Source: Sphingomonas sp. Leaf412 | GTDB taxonomy: Bacteria; Pseudomonadota; Alphaproteobacteria; Sphingomonadales; Sphingomonadaceae | Assembly: GCF_001425405.1 (NCBI RefSeq) | Contig: NZ_LMQP01000003.1 | Location: 387,715 to 451,714 of the forward strand | Reading direction: 5' to 3' | DNA length: 64,000 nt | Part shown: positions 11,392 to 49,796 of the stretch, one piece after another | How positions within the stretch are numbered: the stretch's first letter is position 1 | How the letters are laid out: every line of letters begins with the position of its first letter | The notes under the pieces: generated by a model | Databases searched by the model: none | Told to the model about the DNA's origin: nothing | Seen by the model: the letters and a program-made list of their open reading frames with translations, nothing else | Translations under genes and position numbers: made by a program

Positions 11392-11834
11392 CCCCCCTGT
11401 CGACGCATCAGGGCATAGGGGGGAAAGGTGGACAAGGGGTTTCGTGCGTCCCCCACCTTCCGTTCGGCCCGAGCCCTTCGACTGCCTGCCAAGGCAGGCG
11501 CTCAGGACAGGCTTCGGCACGTTGTGCCGAAGTCGAAGGTTAGGCGCGGCGCCTGTGCTTCGACTTCGCTCAGCACGAACGGGGGTGGCGCAAGGGCCGG
11601 GGTGGCGGGTGTGCGGGGCGAACGTCCCGCCTGTCGCCTTCCGTCATGCCGGGCTCGTCCCGGAACCCACCGTGCCGCGCCGCCGCCGGGTCGAGGGGCG
11701 CGGCACGGTGGACCCCGGCACAAGGCCGGGGTGACGGGCCGGGGTGACGGTGTGGCCGGGGGCATCTTCCGTATCCCCGCGACGGTGGGGATCCAGTCTG
11801 GGCTCCCGCCTTCGCGGGAGCACAACAAAGGGTG
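11392..11834. repeat. Gene-free spacer of stacked dispersed repeats
   Basis: No gene is seen in this 443-base spacer between ugd and wecB. It holds an enlarged element C (11462-11583, with internal pairs CTGCC/GGCAG and CTTCGGCAC/GTGCCGAAG), a full element A (11642-11736) and an element B copy in reverse orientation (11762-11826). Three unrelated repeat families in one spacer suggest a tolerated insertion site. Confidence 0.65.
11642..11736. repeat. Element A palindromic repeat
   Basis: It begins CGTCATGCCGGG and ends GGCCGGGGTGACG, with a hairpin at each end (CCGGGCTCGTCCCGG and CCCCGGCACAAGGCCGGGG) and an inner pair ACCGTGCCGCG/CGCGGCACGGT. This is one of the cleaner full copies in the window. 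Confidence 0.75.
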
Positions 11835-13281: not shown

Positions 13282-14661
13282 TCAGCTCGCGAGGCGCAGG
13301 GGTTCCGCCGTCGCCGGTATGCGCGGCTGGTCGGGCCAGATGCCGCGGGTGTCGTACACGTGCTTGCCCGCGCGTTCGTCCAGCGGGACCGAGCGGAACA
13401 GGTCGTGGTCGACCAGCACGATCATCGCCGCGCATTCCTCGATCGCGGTGTCCAGGTCGGTCAGCGTCGCGCCCGATCCGTCGAAGGCGGGCGGCAGCGT
13501 CGCGGCATAGGGTTCGACCACGCGGACGCGCGCGCCGAAGCGATGCGCCAGCGCGGCCGCGACCTTCAGCGCGGGGCTTTCGCGGAAGTCGTCGATATTG
13601 GCCTTGAACGCGAGGCCCAGGCACGCGACCGGGCCGGGAACGGCGGCGATCAGCGCGGCGGCGCGTTCGACGACATGGTCGCTCTTGGCGTCGTTCACCA
13701 GCCTCGCGGTGCGGATCAGCGGCGTGTTGGCGGGGTCGCCGTGGACGAGGAACCACGGATCGACCGCGATGCAATGCCCGCCGACGCCGGGGCCGGGTTG
13801 CAGGATGTTGACGCGCGGATGGCGGTTGGCGAGGCGGATGACTTCCCACACATCCACCCCCAAGGTGTCGGCGACGCGGCTCATCTCGTTCGCGAAGGCG
13901 ATGTTGACGTCGCGGAAGGCGTTCTCGGTCAGCTTCGTCATCTCCGCCGCGCGCGCCGTGGTGGTGACGCAGGCGCCGCGGACGAAGCGGCGGTAGAAAT
14001 GCAGCGCCTTGCGCGCGCAGCGCGGCGTGATGCCGCCGATGACGCGGTCGTTGTCGATCAGTTCGACCAGGATGCGGCCAGGCAGGACTCGTTCCGGGCA
14101 ATAGGCGATGGCGACGTCGTGGCCGCCGGCCCCGGGCAGTTTCAGGTCGGGGCGCAGCTGCGCGAGGAAATCGCGCACCTGCTCGGTCGTGCCGACGGGG
14201 GAGGTGGATTCCAGGATGACGGTGTCCCCGGCCTTCAGCACCGTGGCGATCGCGGTCGCGGCCTTCAGGACGTAGCCCACGTCGGGGGCGTGGTTCGCAT
14301 CGAAGGGCGTGGGCACCGCGATTACGAACACGTCCGCGGGCGCGACCTGCGTCGCGGCGACCAGGTTGCCGCGCGCGACGACGCCCGACACGAGGCCGTC
14401 GAGGTCGACCTCCTCGATATGGACGCGGCCGGAATTGACCGTCTCCACGACCTGCGCCGACACGTCGACGCCCAGCACCATCGCCCCCGTCCGCGCGATG
14501 ACCGCGGCGGTGGGCAGGCCGATGTAGCCAAGGCCGAGGACGCAGACCCTGAGTTCGGTTTCGTCGCGCAACGCCGGTTCCTTCGCGAGGGAGAAGCGCG
14601 CGTCATGCGGGGGGAGGGGTTGAGATTTGGTTGTTTTCGGGGGGTGGGCTCGTGTCGTCAT
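13282..14661 (-). CDS. wecC: UDP-N-acetyl-D-mannosamine dehydrogenase
   Basis: Member of the nucleotide-sugar dehydrogenase family, 459 residues as called. It oxidises UDP-ManNAc (from wecB) to UDP-ManNAcA. Motifs are VLGLGYIGLPTAAVIA (42-57), AVPTPFD, ESTSPVGTTEQV, YCPERVLPG, the catalytic Cys297 in GPGVGGHCIAVDPWF, and LGLAFKANIDDFRESPA. The HCIAVDP form favours WecC over Ugd. The first 35 residues have no family similarity. The ATG at 14661 is part of the terminal ATGACG of a palindromic element A, so the true start may be a later codon, such as the TTG of ALRDETE. Confidence 0.9.
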   Translation of the reverse strand: MTTRAHPPKTTKSQPLPPHDARFSLAKEPALRDETELRVCVLGLGYIGLPTAAVIARTGAMVLGVDVSAQVVETVNSGRVHIEEVDLDGLVSGVVARGNLVAATQVAPADVFVIAVPTPFDANHAPDVGYVLKAATAIATVLKAGDTVILESTSPVGTTEQVRDFLAQLRPDLKLPGAGGHDVAIAYCPERVLPGRILVELIDNDRVIGGITPRCARKALHFYRRFVRGACVTTTARAAEMTKLTENAFRDVNIAFANEMSRVADTLGVDVWEVIRLANRHPRVNILQPGPGVGGHCIAVDPWFLVHGDPANTPLIRTARLVNDAKSDHVVERAAALIAAVPGPVACLGLAFKANIDDFRESPALKVAAALAHRFGARVRVVEPYAATLPPAFDGSGATLTDLDTAIEECAAMIVLVDHDLFRSVPLDERAGKHVYDTRGIWPDQPRIPATAEPLRLAS

Positions 14662-15687
14662 GCCGGGTTTGTTCCGGCATCCATGGTGCCGCGAGGGGAT
14701 CGGCGGTTGCGTGCGCGGCGCGGTGGAGCCCGGGACGAGCCCGGGGTGACGGTGGGGTGCCGGGCGTCGTGCGTGGCTTGTTCGGCGTCCATGATGCCGC
14801 GAGGGGATCGGCCGTTGTCTTCGCGGCGCGATGGACCCCGGATCAAGTCCGGGGTGACGGGGGGGGCGTCATGCCGGGCCTGTCTTGGCATCCGTGGTGC
14901 CGCGAGGGGATCGGCCGCTGCGTGCGCGGCGCGGTGGAGCCTGGGGTGACGGTGGGGTGCCGGGTGTCGTGCGTGGCTTGTCCCGGAAGCGGTCGACATT
15001 CGATTTGCCGTGCAGGGTGTTCGCGCGAAGCCGCGAAGACGCGAAGTGAAGGAGGAGACTGGTTCGCGCGGAGGCGCGGAGGACGCGGAGAGTGGCCTGT
15101 GGCGCGGGGCGGCGCTGCCTTCATGGAAGCAGCGATGTCGGGCCGCGGCCGGTAATCGGCGTTGCGAGCTGCCCGGTGCGCGACACCTCCGCGTCCTCCG
15201 CGCCTCCGCGTGAACCCCGACTTCCTTGCGTCTTGGCGGCTTCGCGCGAACACCCTGCACCGGCAAATCGAATGTCGATCTGGCTTTGCATTCATGGAGC
15301 TGCGACACCGGCCGTTGTCTTCGCGGCGCGATGGACCCCGGATCAAGTCCGGGGTGACGGTGGGTGGCTGGTCGTCACGCCGGGTCTGTCCCGGCATCCA
15401 CCGTGCGGCGGGAACGTCGGCCGTTGCGTGCGCGGCGCGGTGGACCCGGGGACGGGCCCGGGGTGCGGGGTGGTGGTGGCGTCGGCCTGCGCCTCTTTAC
15501 CGTCCTGCTCGCGGGCGGGGACGGTCGGGAGGCGACCGGGGCGGCGGGCGGCGTGTCGTCGGTCTGGCCTTTCCGACCGGGCCCCGGCCCGCGCCGGGGA
15601 ACGGTCCCGTATCGGGCACGCAAATCCGGTTTACGCGCACGGAAGGATGCGCCAACCATGCGCGCCGCAACGATACGGGGGATTCGC
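14656..15687. repeat. Gene-free repeat island upstream of wecC
   Basis: About 1 kb without a credible gene. It holds element A copies at 14656-14751, 14766-14859 (left end degraded), 14867-14951, 15308-15359 (right half) and 15373-15467. Between them is a large imperfect inverted repeat with arms 14994-15090 and 15187-15278. The remaining 15468-15687 is spacer leading to tspO, in which I see only a possible AAGGA at 15642. Frames that stay open here are by-products of the GC bias. Confidence 0.75.
14994..15278. repeat. Large inverted repeat (arms about 95 bp, loop about 95 bp)
   Basis: The left arm reads CGACATTCGATTTGCCGTGC, then GGTGTTCGCGCGAAGC and GGAGGCGCGGAGGACGCGGAG. The right arm is its reverse complement with a few mismatches (CTCCGCGTCCTCCGCGCCTC through GCTTCGCGCGAACACC to GGCAAATCGAATGTCG). 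The middle of about 95 bases differs from the arms. The GCGCGGAGGCGCGGAGG text also appears in the tandem array at 17310 and 17610. Confidence 0.75.
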
Positions 15688-17061: not shown

Positions 17062-18159
17062 GGCGTGCGCGGGGGTGTTCCGCGGGGGCGGGTCGGGTGA
17101 TGTGCGGTGCGGGGTGTGGGGTTTGATCCTGTGGCCGCTGTGCCGAGCGAATGGTCGTCGTGGCGCGTGTGGCGTGGTGGACCCCGGAACAGGTCCGGGG
17201 TGACGGAGTGGGTGGGGTTGGCGGCGTGGCCGTTGCACCCGCCGTCATGCCGGACCTGTTTCGGCATCCAGGGGTCCGCTGGACCGTGCATGGCGAGGGG
17301 GGCGCCAGGAAGGGGTTTGTTCGCGCGGAGACGCGGAGGGCGCGGAGGCGTTCCGTGCGGGGATGTCGGGGGTTCCGCTGTCCGACGTTGGTTCGATGAT
17401 TTGCGGTGCGGGCGTGCGTGACCGTATCTTGGGGCCGCTGTTTCGTTTGAGTTCGTGTCGTGGGATGCGTGGCGCGGTGGACCCCGGAACAAGTCCGGGG
17501 TGACGGAGTTGGCCGCGTGGCCGTTGCGCCTGCCGTCATGCAGGACCTGTTTCGGCATCCACGGGTCCGCTGGACCGTGCATGGCGAGGGGGGCGCCAGG
17601 AAGGGGTTTGTTCGCGCGGAGGCGCGGAGGGCGCGGAGGGGTTCCGTGCGGGGATGTCGGGGGTTTCGCTGTCCGACGTTGGTTGGGTGATTTGCGGTGC
17701 GGGCGTGCGTGACCGCATCTTGGGGCCGCTGTTTCGTCTGAGTGCGTGTCGTGGGATGCGTGGCGCGGTGGACCTCGGAACACGTCCGGGGTGACGGGGT
17801 GGGTCGGGTTGGCCGCGTGGCCGTTGCGCCTGCCGTCATGCAGGACCTGTTCCGGCATCCACCGGGCCGCTGGACGGTGCGTGGCGGGGCGCGGGTTTGT
17901 GGCCGGATGTGTGGCGGCGGCGTAGATGCCGGGCGAGGCGTGAGACGGTGGCCTGTGCTTCCGCACCGCCCGTCACCCCGGACTTGATCCGGGGTCCATC
18001 GTGCCCCGAAGCAACGGGTCGTTGTACTTGCGGCGCGATGGATGCCGGATCAGGTCCGGCATGACGGAGGTCGGGTTGTTCGTACCGCGAGGCGACCGGC
18101 GGTTGTCTGTGGCGCGATGGATGCCGGATCGGGTCCGGCATGACGGGGAGTGACGTGAC
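17062..18159. repeat. Gene-free tandem repeat island between ybjN and proC
   Basis: No credible gene in 1.1 kb. A unit of about 295 bp occurs nearly three times: the marker ACCCCGGAAC is at 17181 and 17481, and ACCTCGGAAC at 17772 (periods 300 and 291). Each unit carries element A half-hairpins in reversed order (right half, then CGTCATG left half), a TTCGCGCGGAG block and a shared unique stretch (GGGGCCGCTGTTTCG). The third copy is cut short after about 110 bases. A full element A (17971-18066) and a partial one (18081-18144) follow, up to 16 bases before proC. Confidence 0.8.
17971..18066. repeat. Element A palindromic repeat
   Basis: CGTCACCCCGGACTTGATCC opens the element and CCGGCATGACG closes it, with end hairpins CCCCGGACTTGATCCGGGG and GCCGGATCAGGTCCGGC. 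The two ends are of different subtype (CCCCGG and GCCGG). Confidence 0.75.
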
Positions 18160-43224: not shown

Positions 43225-43305
43225 CGTCACCCCGGCGAAGGCCGGGGCCTCGTGCCGCAGGGACGCTCCCTGCGGCACGAGATGCCGGCCTGCGCCGGCA
43301 TGACG
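43225..43305. repeat. Element A palindromic repeat between infB and rbfA
   Basis: A near-perfect palindrome: CGTCACCCCGGCGAAGGCC at one end, CCGGCCTGCGCCGGCATGAC at the other, and a long central stem CTCGTGCCGCAGGGA/TCCCTGCGGCACGAG around CGC. It sits inside an essential operon, so it must let enough transcription through or be a processing site. Confidence 0.8.
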
Positions 43306-43311
43306 TGATGT

Positions 43312-46074
43312 TTACAACGTGCGTTCGCGCAGTTCGACTTCGTAGGTTTCCAGGAAGTCGCCCGGCTTGATGTCGGTGAAGTTCTGCGTGAACGTGACAC
43401 CGCATTCCAGCCCGGCGCGGACCTCCGCCACATCGTCCTTGAACCGGCGCAGCGACGCGATCTCGCCCTGGTAGATGATGACGTCCGCCCGCGTGATGCG
43501 CGCCTTCAGCGCCTTGCGGATGACGCCCTCGACCACCAGCAGGCCCGCCGCGCGGCCATGCTTGCCCGCGGAGAACACCTCGCGGATTTCCGCGCGGCCC
43601 ACGACGGTCTCGAACGCCTCGGGCCCAAGCTCGCCGGCCATGCCCGCCCGGATCTCGTCGATCAGGTCGTAGATGACGTCGTAGTACTTCAGCGCCACCT
43701 TGTGCCGATCGGCGATCTGCCGCGCATTGGCGTTGGCGCGGACGTTGAAGCCGATGATCGGCGCACCCGAGGCCGAGGCCACGTTCACGTCGCTTTCGGT
43801 GATGCCGCCGACGCCCGAATGCAGGATCCGCGCCTTGATATCGTCGGTCGATATCTTGTTGATCGACGCCACGATCGCCTCGACCGTGCCCTGCGTATCC
43901 GCCTTCACGACCAGCGGATATTCGATCGCCTGGTTCGCCTTCAGCGCCGAGAACATCGATTCCAGGCTGGCGGGCGCGGACGTGGTGCGCTTCTGCGTCA
44001 GCACGCCCTGGCGATATTCCGCCACCTCGCGCGCGCGCGCCTCGTTCTCCACCACCTGCATCGGGTCGCCCGCCGACGGCGTGCCGGTCATGCCGAGGAT
44101 CTCGACCGGCATGGACGGGCCCGCCTCCTTCAGCTGGCGCCCCTTGTCGTCGACGATCGCGCGGACCTTCCCGCTTTCGGCGCCGATGACGAACACGTCG
44201 CCGACCTTCACGGTGCCGCGGGTGACCAGCACGGTCGCGACCGGGCCGCGGCCCTTGTCCAGCTTCGCCTCGACCACGATGCCCTCGGCCGCGCGATCGG
44301 GGTTGGCGGTCAGTTCCATCAACTCGGCCTGGAGCTGGATCTTCTCGATCAGGTCCTCGAGCCCGGTCTTCTTCAGCGCCGACACCTCGACGTCCTGCGT
44401 CTCGCCGCCCATGCTCTCGACCTGCACGTCCTCGCTCAGCAGGCGCTCGCGCACGCGCTGGGCATTGGCGTCGGGCTTGTCGACCTTGTTGATCGCCACG
44501 ATCATCGGCTTGCCCGCGGCGCGGGTGTGATTGATCGCCTCGATCGTCTGCGGCATCAGCCCGTCGTCGGCGGCCACCACCAGGACGACGATATCGGTCA
44601 CGTCCGCGCCGCGCGCGCGCATGGCCGAGAACGCCTCATGCCCCGGCGTGTCGAGGAAGGTGACCTTGGACTTGTCCTTCAGGGTCACCTGATACGCGCC
44701 GATATGCTGCGTGATGCCGCCGGCCTCGCCGCGCACCACGTCGGTGCCGCGCAGCGCGTCCAGCAGGCTGGTCTTGCCGTGGTCGACATGGCCCATGATC
44801 GTGACGACCGGGGGCCGCGGGCGCAGCTCGTCCGGCATGTCCTCGGTCGTGTCGAGCGCGAGGTCGATGTCGCTGTCGGACACACGGACGATGTTGTGGC
44901 CGAATTCGGTCACGAGGAGCTCGGCCGTATCCTGGTCGATCGTCTGCGTCATCGTGACGGGCGAGCCCATCTTGAACAGCGTCTTCACCAGGTCCGCGCC
45001 CTTTTCCGCCATGCGGTTGGCCAGTTCCTGGACGGTGATCGCCTCGGGCACCTGCACGTCGCGGACCATCTTGACCTGCGGTTCGCGCGGGCCGCCGAAG
45101 CCGCGCTTCTCCTTCTCGCGCGCGCGCTTCAGCGCGGCGAGGCTGCGCGCGCGGGCGCCGTCCTCGTTCAGGGCGCGCGTGACGGTCAGCTTGCCGCCGC
45201 GCCGCTCGTCTGCCTTGCGATCGCGCTGCGTCGGGGCGCCGCGCGCGGGCGTGCCGCCGCGCGGCGTCGCCTGGCCCGAGGGCAGCGCGCGGCCCGCGGT
45301 GCCGCCTGCCGTCGCGGGAGCGGCGGCGGAGACGGGCTCCGGCTTCGGCTCGGGCTTGGGCTGGGGCTTGGGGATTTCGGGACGCGCGACGGGCGAGAAG
45401 CGGCGCGGCGCGGGCATCGCCGGATCGCGCGCCAGTTCCACCACGGGCGGCGGGGGCGGCGGCGCGGCGGGCGTCGGCGCGGGAGCGGGCGTCGCCGCCA
45501 CGGGTGCCGGAGCCGGAGCCGGAGCCACCGGGGTCGCAGGCGTGGGCGTGGGGGCGGGCGCCGGGGCGGGCGTCGTGGTGGCCTGGGCCGGTGCCGGCGC
45601 GTCCGCCACGGGGGCGGGCGGCGCAGCGGGTTCGGGCGCCGGCGCGGGCTCGGGCGCCTTCGCGGCCTCCGCCTCGGCGCGCGCGCGCTCCTCGATGCGA
45701 CGCTGCGCTTCCTCGGCGGCGCGCTGCTTCTCCGATTCCTCGCGACGACGCGATTCCTCCAGCGAATGCATCCGCTGATCCTCGGCATCGCGCAGCATCC
45801 GCGCCTGCCGCTCCTGCGCGGTCTCGCCCGACGGGGCGGGGCGCGGGGCGGGGGCGGCCGGGGCGGGCGGCGGGGGCGCCGCGACCGGTTCCGGCGTCGG
45901 TTCCGGGGCGGCACCCTGCGGACCGAGCACGCGGCGACGCTTCACCTCGACCACCACCGTATTGCTACGGCCGTGGCTGAAGCTCTGCTTCACCTTGCCG
46001 GTCTCGACCGTGCGCTTCACGCCCAGCGGCGCGCGCATCCCGAGTTTCGGCTTGTCGTTGTCGGTCTCGCTCAC
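43312..46074 (-). CDS. infB: Translation initiation factor IF-2
   Basis: GTPase of 920 residues that places initiator tRNA on the ribosome. Residues 1-60 contain the alphaproteobacterial start ([32 protein letters not shown]). Residues 60-300 are a low-complexity Pro/Ala/Glu linker. Then the IF2-N helix bundle ([23 protein letters not shown]) and the G domain (GHVDHGKTS near 425, [18 protein letters not shown]) follow. The C-terminal initiator-tRNA domain includes [16 protein letters not shown] and [16 protein letters not shown]. Its ATG overlaps the ylxR stop. Confidence 0.97.
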
Positions 46075-46778
46075 TCAAAATCCTCGTCTGTCGTCACGGC
46101 CGTTCGCACCCGGTCCGGACCGGGCGCCGATGCCCCCTGCGCGGCCGTAGCGCAAGGTGCGGGGATGGGATCAGGGCCGATAAAATGCAGCCAGCGCGAC
46201 AGGGCTTCCCCCGTTCGCGCTGCGGCCGCACGGTCGATGACGCCGATATGTACCACATTGTCGCGGCCCAGCGCCAACGCCAATATGGTGCGCGGCACCG
46301 GCAGCGCCAACCCCCTGAGGTCGGAGCCTTCGCGATCGCTGCCCACGCGCCACGCCTGCGCCAGTTTCCGCGCGCCGTCGTCGCTCGCGTCCTCGGCGTG
46401 ATACAGCGCGTGGAGCTTGCCCGACCGCGCCGCCTGCTCGATCCGCTCCGATCCCGTCAGGACGGTGCCCGCGCGCGATTCGAGGCCCAGCCGGTCGAGC
46501 GCGTTGCGTTCGAGCGCGGCGGCGATGCGCGCGGGCAGATCGTCCGCGACCTTCAGCTCGTTGTCGCGGAACGCGCGGGCGAGCGCGCCGCGCAACCGGC
46601 CCTTCGCGACCGCCAGTTCCAGCTGCGCGCGCGTGACGCCGATCCACGCCCCGCGCCCGGGCGCCTTCGCCCGCACGTCGGGCAGGATGCTACCGTCGGG
46701 CGCGAGCGCGAGGCGGATGAGCGCGTGCGCGGGCGCGCGGTCGCGAGTGAGGATGCAGGAGCGGACGGGGTCGGTCAT
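46071..46778 (-). CDS. ylxR: YlxR (DUF448) RNA-binding protein, fused to an L7Ae-like domain
   Basis: A protein of 235 residues. The N-terminal DUF448/YlxR domain (1-85) has RSCILTRDRAPAHALIRLALAPDG, and RAKAPGRGAWIGVTRAQLELAVAKGRL. Residues 95-190 resemble the ribosomal L7Ae-like fold often attached in alphaproteobacteria (LESRAGTVLTGSERIEQAARSGKLHALYHAEDASDDGARKL split over helix-strand pairs). The tail is disordered. ATG 46778 starts the conserved domain. Normally adjacent to nusA, here separated by 810 bases holding the GIY-YIG gene and a tautomerase gene. Coupled to infB by ATGA. Confidence 0.88.
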   Translation of the reverse strand: MTDPVRSCILTRDRAPAHALIRLALAPDGSILPDVRAKAPGRGAWIGVTRAQLELAVAKGRLRGALARAFRDNELKVADDLPARIAAALERNALDRLGLESRAGTVLTGSERIEQAARSGKLHALYHAEDASDDGARKLAQAWRVGSDREGSDLRGLALPVPRTILALALGRDNVVHIGVIDRAAAARTGEALSRWLHFIGPDPIPAPCATAAQGASAPGPDRVRTAVTTDEDFE

Positions 46779-46792
46779 GCTGTGATCCCGTT

Positions 46793-46889
46793 CGTCATGC
46801 CGGCCTTGTGCCGGGGTCCATCGTGCCACCAGGACGAACGCCGGTCGCACTCGCGGACGGATGGACCCCGGATCAAGTCCGGGGTGACG
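46793..46889. repeat. Element A palindromic repeat, left of the GIY-YIG gene
   Basis: CGTCATGCCGGCCTTGTGCC opens and CCGGGGTGACG closes. The hairpin ACCCCGGATCAAGTCCGGGGT forms the right end, and GGTCCATCGTGCC/GGATGGACC the inner pair. It lies 39 bases upstream of the GIY-YIG start. Confidence 0.78.
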
Positions 46890-46927
46890 GGGGATTGTGC
46901 GACGGTGTCGCGCCCGGCAATCTGCGG

Positions 46928-47236
46928 ATGATGAGGGAGCGGCAACCTTGCGTCTACATCCTGGCGAGCGGCCATTACGGCACGTTGTACGTCGGCGTAA
47001 CGTCCGACCTTCTTGCCCGTCTCATCCAGCATCGCGACGGCACCTTCGCGGGGTTCACCAGCCGCTACGGCGTCATGCGCCTCGTCTGGTTCGACATGGC
47101 CGACACGATGGAGGCCGCCATCGCGACCGAGAAACGGATCAAGAAATGGCGTCGCGACTGGAAGATCGACCTGATCGAACGCGGCAATCCCCGCTGGGAG
47201 GATCTGGCGACCGGTTTCGGTCTGCCGCGTCTGTAG
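46928..47236 (+). CDS. GIY-YIG nuclease family protein (UPF0213-like)
   Basis: A single-domain nuclease of 102 residues. The GIY-like motif is VYIL (9-12) and YIG-like is YVG (21-23). Arg31 and His35 (LLARLIQHRDG) and Glu68 (ATEKRIKKWRR) are the expected catalytic and metal residues. It ends in NPRWEDLATGFG as in the URI/UPF0213 group. The length fits a stand-alone domain. ATG 46928 or 46931. It is the only plus-strand gene inside the minus-strand nusA-ylxR-infB operon and has an element A copy on each side (46793-46889, 47242-47338). That layout suggests arrival as, or association with, a mobile unit. Confidence 0.88.
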   Translation: MMRERQPCVYILASGHYGTLYVGVTSDLLARLIQHRDGTFAGFTSRYGVMRLVWFDMADTMEAAIATEKRIKKWRRDWKIDLIERGNPRWEDLATGFGLPRL

Positions 47237-47241
47237 CGATC

Positions 47242-47338
47242 CGTCATGCCGGGCCCGACCCGGAATCCATCGCGCCGCGCTGGCCCCGATCCGGGGAGCA
47301 TGCGGCACGATGGACCCCGGCTCGCGGCCGGGGTGACG
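47242..47338. repeat. Element A palindromic repeat, right of the GIY-YIG gene
   Basis: CGTCATGCCGGGCCCGACCC opens and GGCCGGGGTGACG closes, with end hairpins CCGGGCCCGACCCGG and CCCCGGCTCGCGGCCGGGG. It starts 6 bases after the nuclease stop codon and is in the same orientation as the left copy. Confidence 0.78.
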
Positions 47339-47363
47339 ATGGATCGGTGAGCGCCCTAGCGCC

Positions 47364-47588
47364 TCATCGGTTGGGAACCGCATGCGCGTCTCCCTTTTTG
47401 GCGTCGCGATCGACCAGCAGGATGCCGCCCGCGCCGTAATTCTCCGTCGACACTTCCTCGATCACGATCTGTACCGCGGCCGGGTTCTTGCCCAGCCGCG
47501 ACACGAGCGAGGACGTGACGTCGGCCACGATCCCCGCCTTCTGCTCCCTGCTCGCGGAGCCCGATATCCTGATCGAGACGAACGGCAT
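47364..47588 (-). CDS. 4-oxalocrotonate tautomerase family protein
   Basis: A tautomerase-superfamily protein of 74 residues. After the initiator Met comes Pro (MPFVSIRISG), the catalytic N-terminal proline of this fold. Then come SREQKAGIVADVTSSLVSRLGKNPAAVQIVIEEVSTENYGAGG with the usual helix-strand layout, and a longer C-terminal tail (VDRDAKKGDAHAVPNR). The reaction is keto-enol tautomerisation of an unknown substrate. Its ATG overlaps the nusA stop by one base (TGATG), so it is translated with nusA, an unusual partner. Confidence 0.88.
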   Translation of the reverse strand: MPFVSIRISGSASREQKAGIVADVTSSLVSRLGKNPAAVQIVIEEVSTENYGAGGILLVDRDAKKGDAHAVPNR

Positions 47589-49216
47589 CAGGCGTCCGAT
47601 CCCTCCGTCGCGTCGGTTTCGGCCACGGCGGGTTCCTCGTCCGCGAACCAGTGCGCACGCGCGGCCATGATGATCTCGTTCCCCTGCTCGTCGGACAGGC
47701 CGTATTCGCCCAGCACGCCGCCCTTGTTCTCGGGACGGTCGGTGCGGCGCGGGGCCTCGTCGTTGCGGCGGCGCGGTTCGGCGCGCTTCTTCTCGACCAG
47801 TTCGTCGGTGGCGAGGTCGGCCAGGTCGTCGAGCGTCTTGATGCCCGCCTTGCCCAGCGTCACCAGCATCGCCTCGGTCAGGTACGGCAGCTCGGCCAGC
47901 GCGTCCTCGACGCCCAGTGCCTGCCGCTCCTCGCGATTGGCGACTTCCTTGCGCTCCAACGCCTCGGCGGCGCGGTTCTGCAACTCGGCCGCCAGGTCGT
48001 CGTCGAAGCCCTCGATACCGGCCAGTTCGTCCAGCTCGACATAGGCGACCTCTTCCAGCGCGCCGAAGCCCTCGGCGACCAGCAGCTGTGCCAGCGTCTC
48101 GTCCACGTCCAGCTCGTTCTGGAACAGCTCGCTGTTCTGGACGAACTCCTTCTGCCGCTTCTCGCTCGCGTCCTGTTCGGTCAGGATGTCGATGCCCTTG
48201 CCGGTCAGCTGGCTGGCGAGGCGGACGTTCTGGCCGCGGCGACCGATCGCGAGGCTGAGCTGGTCGTCGGGAACGACGACCTCGATCCGGTCCTCCTCCT
48301 CGTCGATCACGACGCGCGCGACGTTGGCGGGCTGGAGCGCGTTGACGACGAAGGTTGCGGTGTCGGGCGACCAGGGGATGATGTCGATCTTCTCGCCCTG
48401 CATCTCCTGCACGACGGCCTGCACGCGGCTGCCCTTCATGCCGACGCAGGCGCCGACGGGGTCGATCGAGCTGTCGTGGCTGATGACCCCGATCTTCGCA
48501 CGGCTGCCGGGATCGCGTGCCGCGGCCTTGATCTCGATGATGCCGTCGTAGATTTCGGGCACTTCCTGCGCGAACAGCTTCTTCATGAAGTCGGGGTGCG
48601 CGCGGCTGAGGAAGATCTGCGGCCCGCGGTTCTCGCGCACCACCTTCAGGATCAGCGACCGGATGCGGTCGTTGACGCGCACCACTTCGCGCGGGATCTG
48701 CGCGTCGCGGCGGATCACGCCCTCGGCGCGACCCAGGTCGACGACGACATGGCCGAATTCCACGCGCTTGACGACACCGGTGATGATCTCGCCCGCGCGG
48801 TCCTTGAATTCCTCATACTGGCGCTCGCGCTCCGCATCGCGGACCTTCTGGAAGATCGTCTGCTTCGCGGCCTGCGCCTGGATGCGGCCGAACTCGATCG
48901 GGGGCAGGGGATCGACCAGATAGTCGCCGACCTTCGCGCCGGGTTGCAGCTTCTCCGCCCCCTTCAGGTCGACCTGCTTGTACAGGTCGTCGACCTCCTC
49001 GACCACTTCCACGACACGCCACAGGCGAAGGTCGCCGTTGCTGGCGTCCAGCTTCGCGCGGATGTCCATTTCCTGGCCGTAGCGGGTGCGGGCGGCGCGC
49101 TGGATCGCGTCCTCCATCGCCTCGATCACGATCGCGCGATCGATCATCTTCTCGGTCGCGACCGAATTGGCGATCGCGATCAGTTCCGCGCGGTTGGCGG
49201 TGACGCCCGTGGCCAT
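47588..49216 (-). CDS. nusA: Transcription termination/antitermination protein NusA
   Basis: RNA polymerase-binding protein of 542 residues. N-terminal domain (about 1-125) with ANSVATEKMIDRAIVIEAMEDAIQRAARTRYG, S1 domain (GEIITGVVKRVEFGHVVVDLG), KH1 (GVISHDSSIDPVGACVGMKGSRVQAVVQEM), KH2 (DDQLSLAIGRRGQNVRLASQLTG), and C-terminal acidic helical repeats (LLVAEGFGALEEVAYVELDELAGIEGFD, then a second unit). A charged tail with RRRNDEAPRRTDRPE follows. ATG 49216 is 1 base after the rimP stop codon. Confidence 0.96.
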   Translation of the reverse strand: MATGVTANRAELIAIANSVATEKMIDRAIVIEAMEDAIQRAARTRYGQEMDIRAKLDASNGDLRLWRVVEVVEEVDDLYKQVDLKGAEKLQPGAKVGDYLVDPLPPIEFGRIQAQAAKQTIFQKVRDAERERQYEEFKDRAGEIITGVVKRVEFGHVVVDLGRAEGVIRRDAQIPREVVRVNDRIRSLILKVVRENRGPQIFLSRAHPDFMKKLFAQEVPEIYDGIIEIKAAARDPGSRAKIGVISHDSSIDPVGACVGMKGSRVQAVVQEMQGEKIDIIPWSPDTATFVVNALQPANVARVVIDEEEDRIEVVVPDDQLSLAIGRRGQNVRLASQLTGKGIDILTEQDASEKRQKEFVQNSELFQNELDVDETLAQLLVAEGFGALEEVAYVELDELAGIEGFDDDLAAELQNRAAEALERKEVANREERQALGVEDALAELPYLTEAMLVTLGKAGIKTLDDLADLATDELVEKKRAEPRRRNDEAPRRTDRPENKGGVLGEYGLSDEQGNEIIMAARAHWFADEEPAVAETDATEGSDA

Positions 49217-49217
49217 G

Positions 49218-49796
49218 TTACCGGTTATCCTCTTCTTCCCCATCCGCGTCCGCGGATACGTCGTGAAATTCTTCCTCGTCCGCCCCGTCCATCGACAGCG
49301 GGACGGTCGCGGCGATCAGCTTGTCCGTCAGCACCAGCTTCGCGTCGGCGATCCCGGCGAAGGGCACGTGCGCCAGCTCGCCGGTGCGGTTGCGGATCGC
49401 GATGTCCTGCCCCGTCACGCCCTCCAGCTCGCCGCGGAACTGCTTCTGCCCGTCCAGCGGCTCGTTCAGGACGATCCGCGCCTCGTGCCCGACCCAGTCG
49501 GCGAAATCGCCCAGCCGCGTCAGCGGACGATCGATGCCCGGCGACGACACCTCCAGCCGGTACGCGCCCTCTATCGGATCGCGCCCGGCGGCTTCGAGTT
49601 CGTCCAGGACGTCCGAGATGCGGCGCGACAGCGTGGCGCAATCCTCGATCACCAGCTGCCGCGTGTCGGGCCGTTCGGCCATGATCTGCAACGTCCGTTC
49701 GTCGCCCCGACCCATCAGCCGCACGCGCACCAGGTCGAAGCCCAGCGCGGACGCCTCGGGCTCGATCAATGCGGTCAAAGCGGTGATGTCGGCCAA
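49218..49796 (-). CDS. rimP: Ribosome maturation factor RimP
   Basis: A protein of 192 residues for 30S subunit assembly. N-terminal domain: ALIEPEASALGFDLVRVRLMGRGDERTLQIMAERPD, then VIEDCATLSRRISDVLDEL and YRLEVSSPGIDRPLTRLGDFADWVGHEARIVL. C-terminal SH3-like domain (GQKQFRGELEGVTGQDIAIRN) and an acidic tail (EEEFHDVSADADGEEED). The start is TTG 49796, the only codon just before the conserved part, with GAAGG about ten bases upstream. First gene of the rimP-nusA operon. Confidence 0.92.
   Translation of the reverse strand: MADITALTALIEPEASALGFDLVRVRLMGRGDERTLQIMAERPDTRQLVIEDCATLSRRISDVLDELEAAGRDPIEGAYRLEVSSPGIDRPLTRLGDFADWVGHEARIVLNEPLDGQKQFRGELEGVTGQDIAIRNRTGELAHVPFAGIADAKLVLTDKLIAATVPLSMDGADEEEFHDVSADADGEEEDNR

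Follow-up and report, generated by a model that had tools for sequence, protein, structure and literature searches.

REPs of the GTAG type and their RAYT enzymes (REPtrons, REPINs) combine a small nuclease gene with tetranucleotide-tagged hairpins that bracket it, and GTAG REPs are also dispersed between genes, often as dimers. Homing endonucleases of the I-TevI type carry a GIY-YIG nuclease domain. CGTC-tagged REPs, according to the portion of Di Nocera 2013 (PMC3733652) drawn upon here, form a superfamily without a dedicated transposase that includes Neisseria dRS3 and the R. conorii RPE-6 and RPE-4 elements. They are named there in Neisseriae (as dRS3), A. lipoferum and S. meliloti; no tyrosine transposase gene flanked by them is reported in the species studied, and what spreads them is left open. 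The same portion of text describes no associated transposase and does not contain 'GIY', and the GIY-YIG link described below comes from the present analysis. In the genomes counted here CGTC REPs can number in the hundreds, and they occur in several phyla. No report of a GIY-YIG gene paired with REPs was found in open-access titles and abstracts, a scope outside which preprints and most subscription papers fall.

The window, the whole 64,000-nucleotide stretch of Sphingomonas sp. Leaf412 DNA analysed here, contains a stand-alone GIY-YIG nuclease gene bracketed by CGTC-tagged repeats. The preliminary description had placed this gene antisense within the nusA-ylxR-infB operon, and ORF coordinates together with Pfam matches for the gene and its neighbours agree: nusA, ylxR and infB, all three Pfam-confirmed, lie on the minus strand, opposite to the GIY-YIG gene. 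It had also reported a palindromic element, element A, in the same orientation on each side, and we indeed find 97-bp dimers at 46793-46889 and 47242-47338 with the same unit order. The gaps between gene and elements are small, as it had stated, but measure 38 and 5 bases rather than 39 and 6. The features of the window are as follows.

11642-11736 and 14656-14751: tag-outward CGTC REP dimers without a gene, laid out as element A
17971-18066, no strand assigned: tag-outward CGTC REP dimer without a gene, laid out as element A
43225-43305, no strand assigned: tag-outward CGTC REP dimer without a gene, with 4-nt loops
43312-46074, minus strand: infB (Pfam)
46071-46778, minus strand: ylxR (PF04296, E 2.8e-16), its start assumed to be the ATG at 46778, just past the left dimer
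46793-46820, plus strand: outer CGTC REP unit of the left dimer (CGTCATGCCGG..), tag away from the gene
46862-46889, minus strand: inner CGTC REP unit of the left dimer, inverted (CGTCACCCCGG..)
46928 (or 46931)-47236, plus strand: stand-alone GIY-YIG nuclease gene (PF01541), 102 aa (or 101 aa)
47242-47269, plus strand: inner CGTC REP unit of the right dimer
47311-47338, minus strand: outer CGTC REP unit of the right dimer, inverted, tag away from the gene
47357-47383, minus strand: leader MRFPTDEAL, resembling the leaders of uninterrupted ylxR loci
47364-47588, minus strand: small tautomerase ORF (PF01361) between nusA and the insertion
47588-49243, minus strand: nusA (Pfam)

The leader MRFPTDEAL is probably left over from the 5' end that ylxR originally had, and its frame remains open across the insertion for 202 aa, as far as 46775. 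Most of the genus loci read have this small tautomerase ORF between nusA and ylxR.

The units of element A are CGTC-tagged REPs, and the element, a dimer of them, belongs to the published superfamily. Its two palindromic units are 28 bp each, and the CGTC tag of the outer one points away from the gene. All four units beside the gene start with an unpaired CGTC tag (CGTC, or TGTC/CCTC, being the defining tag of CGTC REPs), and they share the stem of 8–9 bp, the loop of 4–5 nt, the CCA tail and the dimeric arrangement; the left outer unit (46793-46820) has two stem mismatches. The tag, an AT-starting stem, a 4–5 nt loop, the CCA tail and dimers are likewise features of the CGTC REPs in the portion of PMC3733652 used here.

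Repeats of this kind are dispersed between genes and often dimeric, as GTAG REPs are. The left half-pattern of element A matched seven times in the window against 0.04 expected, and the right half five times against 0.00. Genome-wide, the pattern CGTCAY-N15..19-RTCCA, which detects just a part of CGTC REPs, gave 351 matches compared with 5 for the reversed pattern, and many of the about 100 places listed are inverted pairs with starts 67–79 bp apart. Pairs of the opposite layout, with facing tags, also occur in the window (14832-14894, 15332-15400, 17178-17270 and 17769-17861), and the dimer model does not explain them. Single palindromes with a CGTC tag at each end, sought as possible footprints (CGTCAY..RTGACG), outnumbered the reversed control in most genomes, but most of the sites listed do not form hairpins and the pattern is palindromic in itself, and we draw no conclusion from these counts. 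The genome also harbors a second CGTC REP family (CGTCATTGCGAGCG.., CGTCATTGCGAGCGNAGCGAAGCAATCCA) in pairs 47 bases apart, for example at G000:C1:426773-426848; some of the places listed for CGTCAY-N15..19-RTCCA belong to it. This family brackets none of the genome's four stand-alone GIY-YIG genes; a repeat related to the CGTCATTGCGAGCGNAGCGAAGCAATCCA family flanks the gene L091, of the window gene's type (type i), in genome G027.

A PF01541 search of the window's genome returned five places, one of which we take to be uvrC. The remaining four are stand-alone genes, each lying, by eye, between palindromes and each with a different repeat, and element A itself brackets just the window gene. 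One, in a sucD-mdh spacer (neighbors assigned by Pfam), is bracketed by CGTCACCCCGGCGAAGGCCGGGGTCCA; another is flanked by CCCCCGCGCAGGCGGGGG-type repeats; and one that belongs to a second subfamily (type ii) is flanked by CGTTCGTCCTGAGC..TCGAAGG repeats. Flanking repeats were scored throughout as the best local alignment, direct or inverted, of the 250 bp to the left of a gene with the 250 bp to its right, and a gene was called bracketed at a score of at least 16. Three of the four genes reach this score and the remaining one (L037) scores 15.

Bracketing proved to be general in the genus and order. Of 62 stand-alone genes, 46 had a flank score of at least 16; of control positions in their regions, 15 of 2963 did. 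Besides the window gene, this set contains 61 genes from 60 regions, taken from the stand-alone matches listed by genome and rank rather than by their flanks, and it includes one gene of another GIY-YIG type (L092). Grouped by shared context, the 62 genes represent 20 distinct loci, and at 16 of these half or more of the members are bracketed. By subfamily, 34/46 genes of type i and 12/16 of type ii were bracketed. With a strict hairpin detector, no more than 17 of the 62 genes (types i and ii mixed) had a tag-outward pair, as did 1 of 3654 control positions. The preliminary description had proposed such a sphingomonad survey, and had named a lack of enrichment beside GIY-YIG genes as telling against a partnership of nuclease and palindrome; the enrichment found supports that partnership.

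REPs might instead have inserted, or been tolerated, around any small non-essential gene, or have been selected as insulating terminators in operons. REPs do form hairpins between genes, and the unit does sit in operons (ylxR, suf). However, when only genes flanked on each side by a gap of 40 bp or more are considered, 39/53 GIY-YIG genes were bracketed compared with only 7/169 other genes of the same regions. A similar contrast comes from 20 stand-alone GIY-YIG genes of other kinds in the class, presumably UPF0213- or SLX1-like: just one was bracketed (control positions 6/901), unlike the window gene's type, for which the class-wide sample gave 20/30 (two of these loci, L240 and L241, come from genomes also in the genus set). 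Type ii gave 11/16 after 2 of its 18 loci were left out. Passive association is therefore highly improbable. Bracketing as a trait of all stand-alone GIY-YIG genes was likewise rejected on the 1/20 count. Bracketing belongs to certain GIY-YIG subfamilies, and the partnership first suggested for a GIY-YIG gene holds for these and not for stand-alone GIY-YIG genes at large.

The association extends well beyond the class. A cross-phylum set was gathered by protein similarity alone as the best 80 of at least 578 confirmed matches; its loci are mostly from Pseudomonadota but also from Bacteroidota, Planctomycetota, Chloroflexota, Nitrospirota, Bacillota and candidate phyla. Flank scores of at least 16 were found at 54 of 76 testable genes (4/80 left out for short flanks) and at 36 of 2347 control positions, and the shared repeats are mostly CGTC/TGTC hairpins. 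At least one tagged hairpin lies in the flanks of 72/80 genes compared with 118/1499 control positions, and a tag-outward pair was found at 44 of 77 genes (3/80 left out for short flanks) compared with 5 of 2895 control positions. Where units were present on both sides (n = 49), the nearest two pointed outward in 29 cases, inward in 10 and parallel in 10. The genus/order, class-wide and cross-phylum sets thus each show an enzyme gene bracketed by repeats beyond chance, as in a REPtron. Such recurrence across distantly related bacteria makes the nuclease a strong candidate for the enzyme, so far missing, by which these palindromes would be handled or spread.

Individual loci illustrate the arrangement. 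Complete CGTC dimers flank a type-i gene on both sides in N. gonorrhoeae and A. lipoferum, CTCATCCCTGTGC..-type repeats do so in S. meliloti, an inverted pair of CGTCGCCCCGTGC hairpins surrounds the gene in N. aromaticivorans, and A. caviae has a CGTC hairpin on one side together with a shared repeat (flank score 22). Five named records of the plasmid collection gave flank scores of 22–65, all above 16. Three records filed as plasmids (NZ_CP119140.1, NZ_CP119142.1 and NZ_AP026896.1; 2.2–4.9 Mb) are chromosome-like in size.

The window protein has PF01541 (GIY-YIG) as its sole Pfam match (E 2.2e-13), with no second Pfam domain. GIY-YIG nucleases conserve two Tyr, an Arg, a Glu and an Asn with known roles. 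An alignment of 51 sequences, with that of the window among them, shows no variation at Y9, Y20, G22, R30, H34, E67 and N86, in agreement with an active nuclease. GIY-YIG folds are the best matches of the AlphaFold model (pLDDT 93.4). UPF0213 proteins are the closest in the PDB by both sequence (1zg2, E 1e-8; 1ywl, E 6e-6) and fold, where 1zg2 (E 4e-4) is the sole match below 0.001 and is followed by 1ywl, Slx1-Slx4 (E 0.017) and the UvrC N-domain. The protein did not match PF01797, the Y1 domain that defines RAYTs. Carriage by phages was rejected after a tblastn search with the protein gave no match in the phage collection.

Evidence that particular nucleases go with particular repeats is mixed. 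Across different loci of different genomes, repeat similarity tracks protein similarity (rho 0.285), compared with a mean rho of 0.093 (sd 0.030) in within-genome shuffles, 0/300 of which were as high. Hairpins were further divided into forms with odd loops (CTTG form) and even loops (CGAAG form). Loop parity changes 10 times on the protein tree compared with 32 times when shuffled (0/500), a result to which kinship and shared loci contribute. Among nearest proteins at other loci of the genus/order set, 16/31 agreed in parity compared with 14.9 in shuffles, which is no excess. Across orders 34/41 agreed, with 29/2000 within-order shuffles as high, and across classes and phyla there was no excess agreement. 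The comparisons within the genus/order set and across classes and phyla give no support to strict one-to-one pairing. It is possible that what the enzymes recognize is the shared tag.

Filled and empty sites were compared at three places. Around ylxR, 30 loci were read from 61 genomes with the gene. In 8/30 ylxR is uninterrupted, the ATGCGG frame reaching the core within 39–60 bases with no hairpin between, and in four more the core is reached after 111–225 bases. In six (G000, G005, G051, G058, G075 and G076) the 5' end is interrupted by hairpins and a GIY-YIG gene, leaving leader and core 478–620 bases apart; G058 has hairpins on only one side of the gene. The copy in G016 contains an internal stop, and four loci (G053, G008, G045 and G048) have a single hairpin and no gene. 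Between sufB and sufC of A. lipoferum, a dimer-gene-dimer array occupies the 618-bp spacer. The suf region was shorter in nine records, from Azospirillum and others; the three Azospirillum relatives aligned from among them are 94–95% identical around the site and have spacers of 88–130 bp that contain no gene, no CGTCA and no TGACG. In a Sphingobium spacer beside fnrL, the gene lies between two REP arms in the aligned plasmids TomMM15, TomTYG46 and TomMM7A. At the same site TomTYG64 has no gene but one palindrome, CGTCACCCCGGG-TCAAG-CCCGGGGTGACG, identical to what joining the two outer parts would give, and TomTYG74 carries a diverged form of it. Neither target duplication nor recent transposition was caught.

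These sites bear on the main rival explanation, homing, in which a selfish GIY-YIG endonuclease gene inserts into existing CGTC REPs as its target and the REPs spread by other means. Like I-TevI-type enzymes, the window protein has the GIY-YIG nuclease domain and may be encoded within its own target: two outward-tagged halves often enclose the gene, the arrangement expected of an endonuclease gene that splits its own site. The protein differs from them in its lack of a second Pfam domain, and would have a dispersed palindrome as its target. The Sphingobium site matches homing, in which the empty allele is an intact site, the TomTYG64 palindrome being split in the three other plasmids by gene and arms. 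This palindrome is explained equally well by deletion between two ACCCCGGG arms, and since it may be either a deletion product or an insertion target it does not decide between homing and mobilization of the repeats by the enzyme. The Azospirillum site does not match, its gene-free spacers being free of tag motifs, and the eight ylxR loci with neither gene nor hairpin also speak against homing, which we consider unlikely.

The same comparisons bear on a housekeeping role in which a structure-specific nuclease would trim back REP hairpins or cruciforms where they obstruct replication, without moving them. The Slx1-Slx4 match, a processor of branched DNA, favors such a role. However, there is no need for a housekeeping gene to lie between copies of its substrate at loci that change, or to be missing or disrupted in close relatives, as is seen here, and we regard this role as even less probable than passive association.

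Repeat abundance was related to the presence of the gene. Relatives with a stand-alone gene (n = 27) had a median of 73 REP pattern matches compared with 15.5 in those without (n = 14), in a sorting of 41 relatives by hand that counted as lacking the gene one with a broken copy (G019), two with weak partial matches (G013, G014) and two with another GIY-YIG type (G028, G040). Class-wide, the median was 6.3 REP matches per Mb in 57 genomes with a strong type-i match and 3.5 in 136 without. Among genomes of at least 3 Mb, 15/40 with the gene and 3/57 without had at least 10 matches per Mb; across the class 7/136 gene-free genomes reached this density, and many gene-bearing genomes have few repeats. 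The lower counts in gene-free genomes argue against homing, while the existence of REP-rich genomes without the gene favors it. The preliminary description had counted repeats abundant in gene-free genomes against a partnership, and this is in part what was found: G029 has 305 matches, G033 61 and G037 45. The listed REPs of G029 are nearly uniform, some in regular steps of 120 or 144 bases (for example on contig C1 at 1869471-1869979 and 1561879-1562339), and that genome yielded neither such a stand-alone GIY-YIG gene nor a Y1-transposase match. A REPtron-like model gives no explanation for these uniform, clustered REPs.

RAYT/Y1 transposases might mobilize CGTC REPs, as they presumably do GTAG REPs, with the GIY-YIG gene as a bystander, given that GTAG and CGTC REPs are similar in design in the portion of Di Nocera 2013 (PMC3733652) used here. 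Yet PF01797 was unmatched in 33/41 genomes, including the REP-rich G009, G020, G023 and G029, and the species studied in that portion yielded no report of a tyrosine transposase gene between CGTC REPs. This is the least probable of the explanations considered. In the window's genome, a RAYT as mobilizer is disfavored by the absence of a PF01797 match.

We lean towards a REPtron-like unit as the rather probable reading, by analogy, of the gene and its flanking palindromes: the GIY-YIG nuclease would be the dedicated partner of CGTC REPs, its cuts allowing the units to spread. Counting against it are the REP-rich genomes that lack the gene, the mixed results on specificity, the small share of genus/order genes with a strict tag-outward pair, nearest units that do not all point outward, the second CGTC family that brackets none of the four genes, and the failure to catch a target duplication or a recent transposition. 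The comparison with RAYTs and REPs made in the preliminary description holds as a parallel of design, in that an enzyme gene is bracketed by tagged hairpin repeats. The enzyme here is a GIY-YIG nuclease whereas theirs is a Y1/HUH transposase, the tag is CGTC rather than GTAG, and mobilization is what we infer for this system. That the protein recognizes CGTC hairpins and cuts beside them is likely. It would recognize the hairpin as a single strand or a cruciform and cut beside it, and host repair would then join the DNA and thereby spread the REP units; we know of no GIY-YIG nuclease that joins DNA ends. The gene between two REPs would represent the autonomous form, and the abundant REP dimers a non-autonomous, MITE-like form.

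A wider proposal is possible and not yet probable: GIY-YIG nucleases, unrelated to transposases, may constitute a second, independent class of REP mobilizers across bacteria, serving the orphan CGTC REPs and, in a second subfamily, TTCGTCCTGAGC-type repeats as their autonomous partners, the tagged hairpins being cut and host repair joining the ends. How CGTC REPs spread becomes testable by a single assay, given a nuclease that is widespread, has one domain and conserved residues, and lies bracketed by the repeats. If the nuclease does move them, mobile DNA would here depend on a nuclease instead of a transposase, in a system that could settle even within an operon of essential genes.

The second subfamily (L270–L287; the 11/16 of the class-wide sample) is associated with another palindrome family, TCATCCTGAGC..TCGAAGGATGA and TTCGTCCTGAGC..TCGAAGG. 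Of the 16 genes of type ii in the genus/order set, 10 have a GIY-YIG frame that continues via a translated repeat into an RNA methyltransferase frame. This read-on was observed in L037 (a SpoU methylase by Pfam), L046, L055, L059, L067, L072, L076, L078, L080 and L085.
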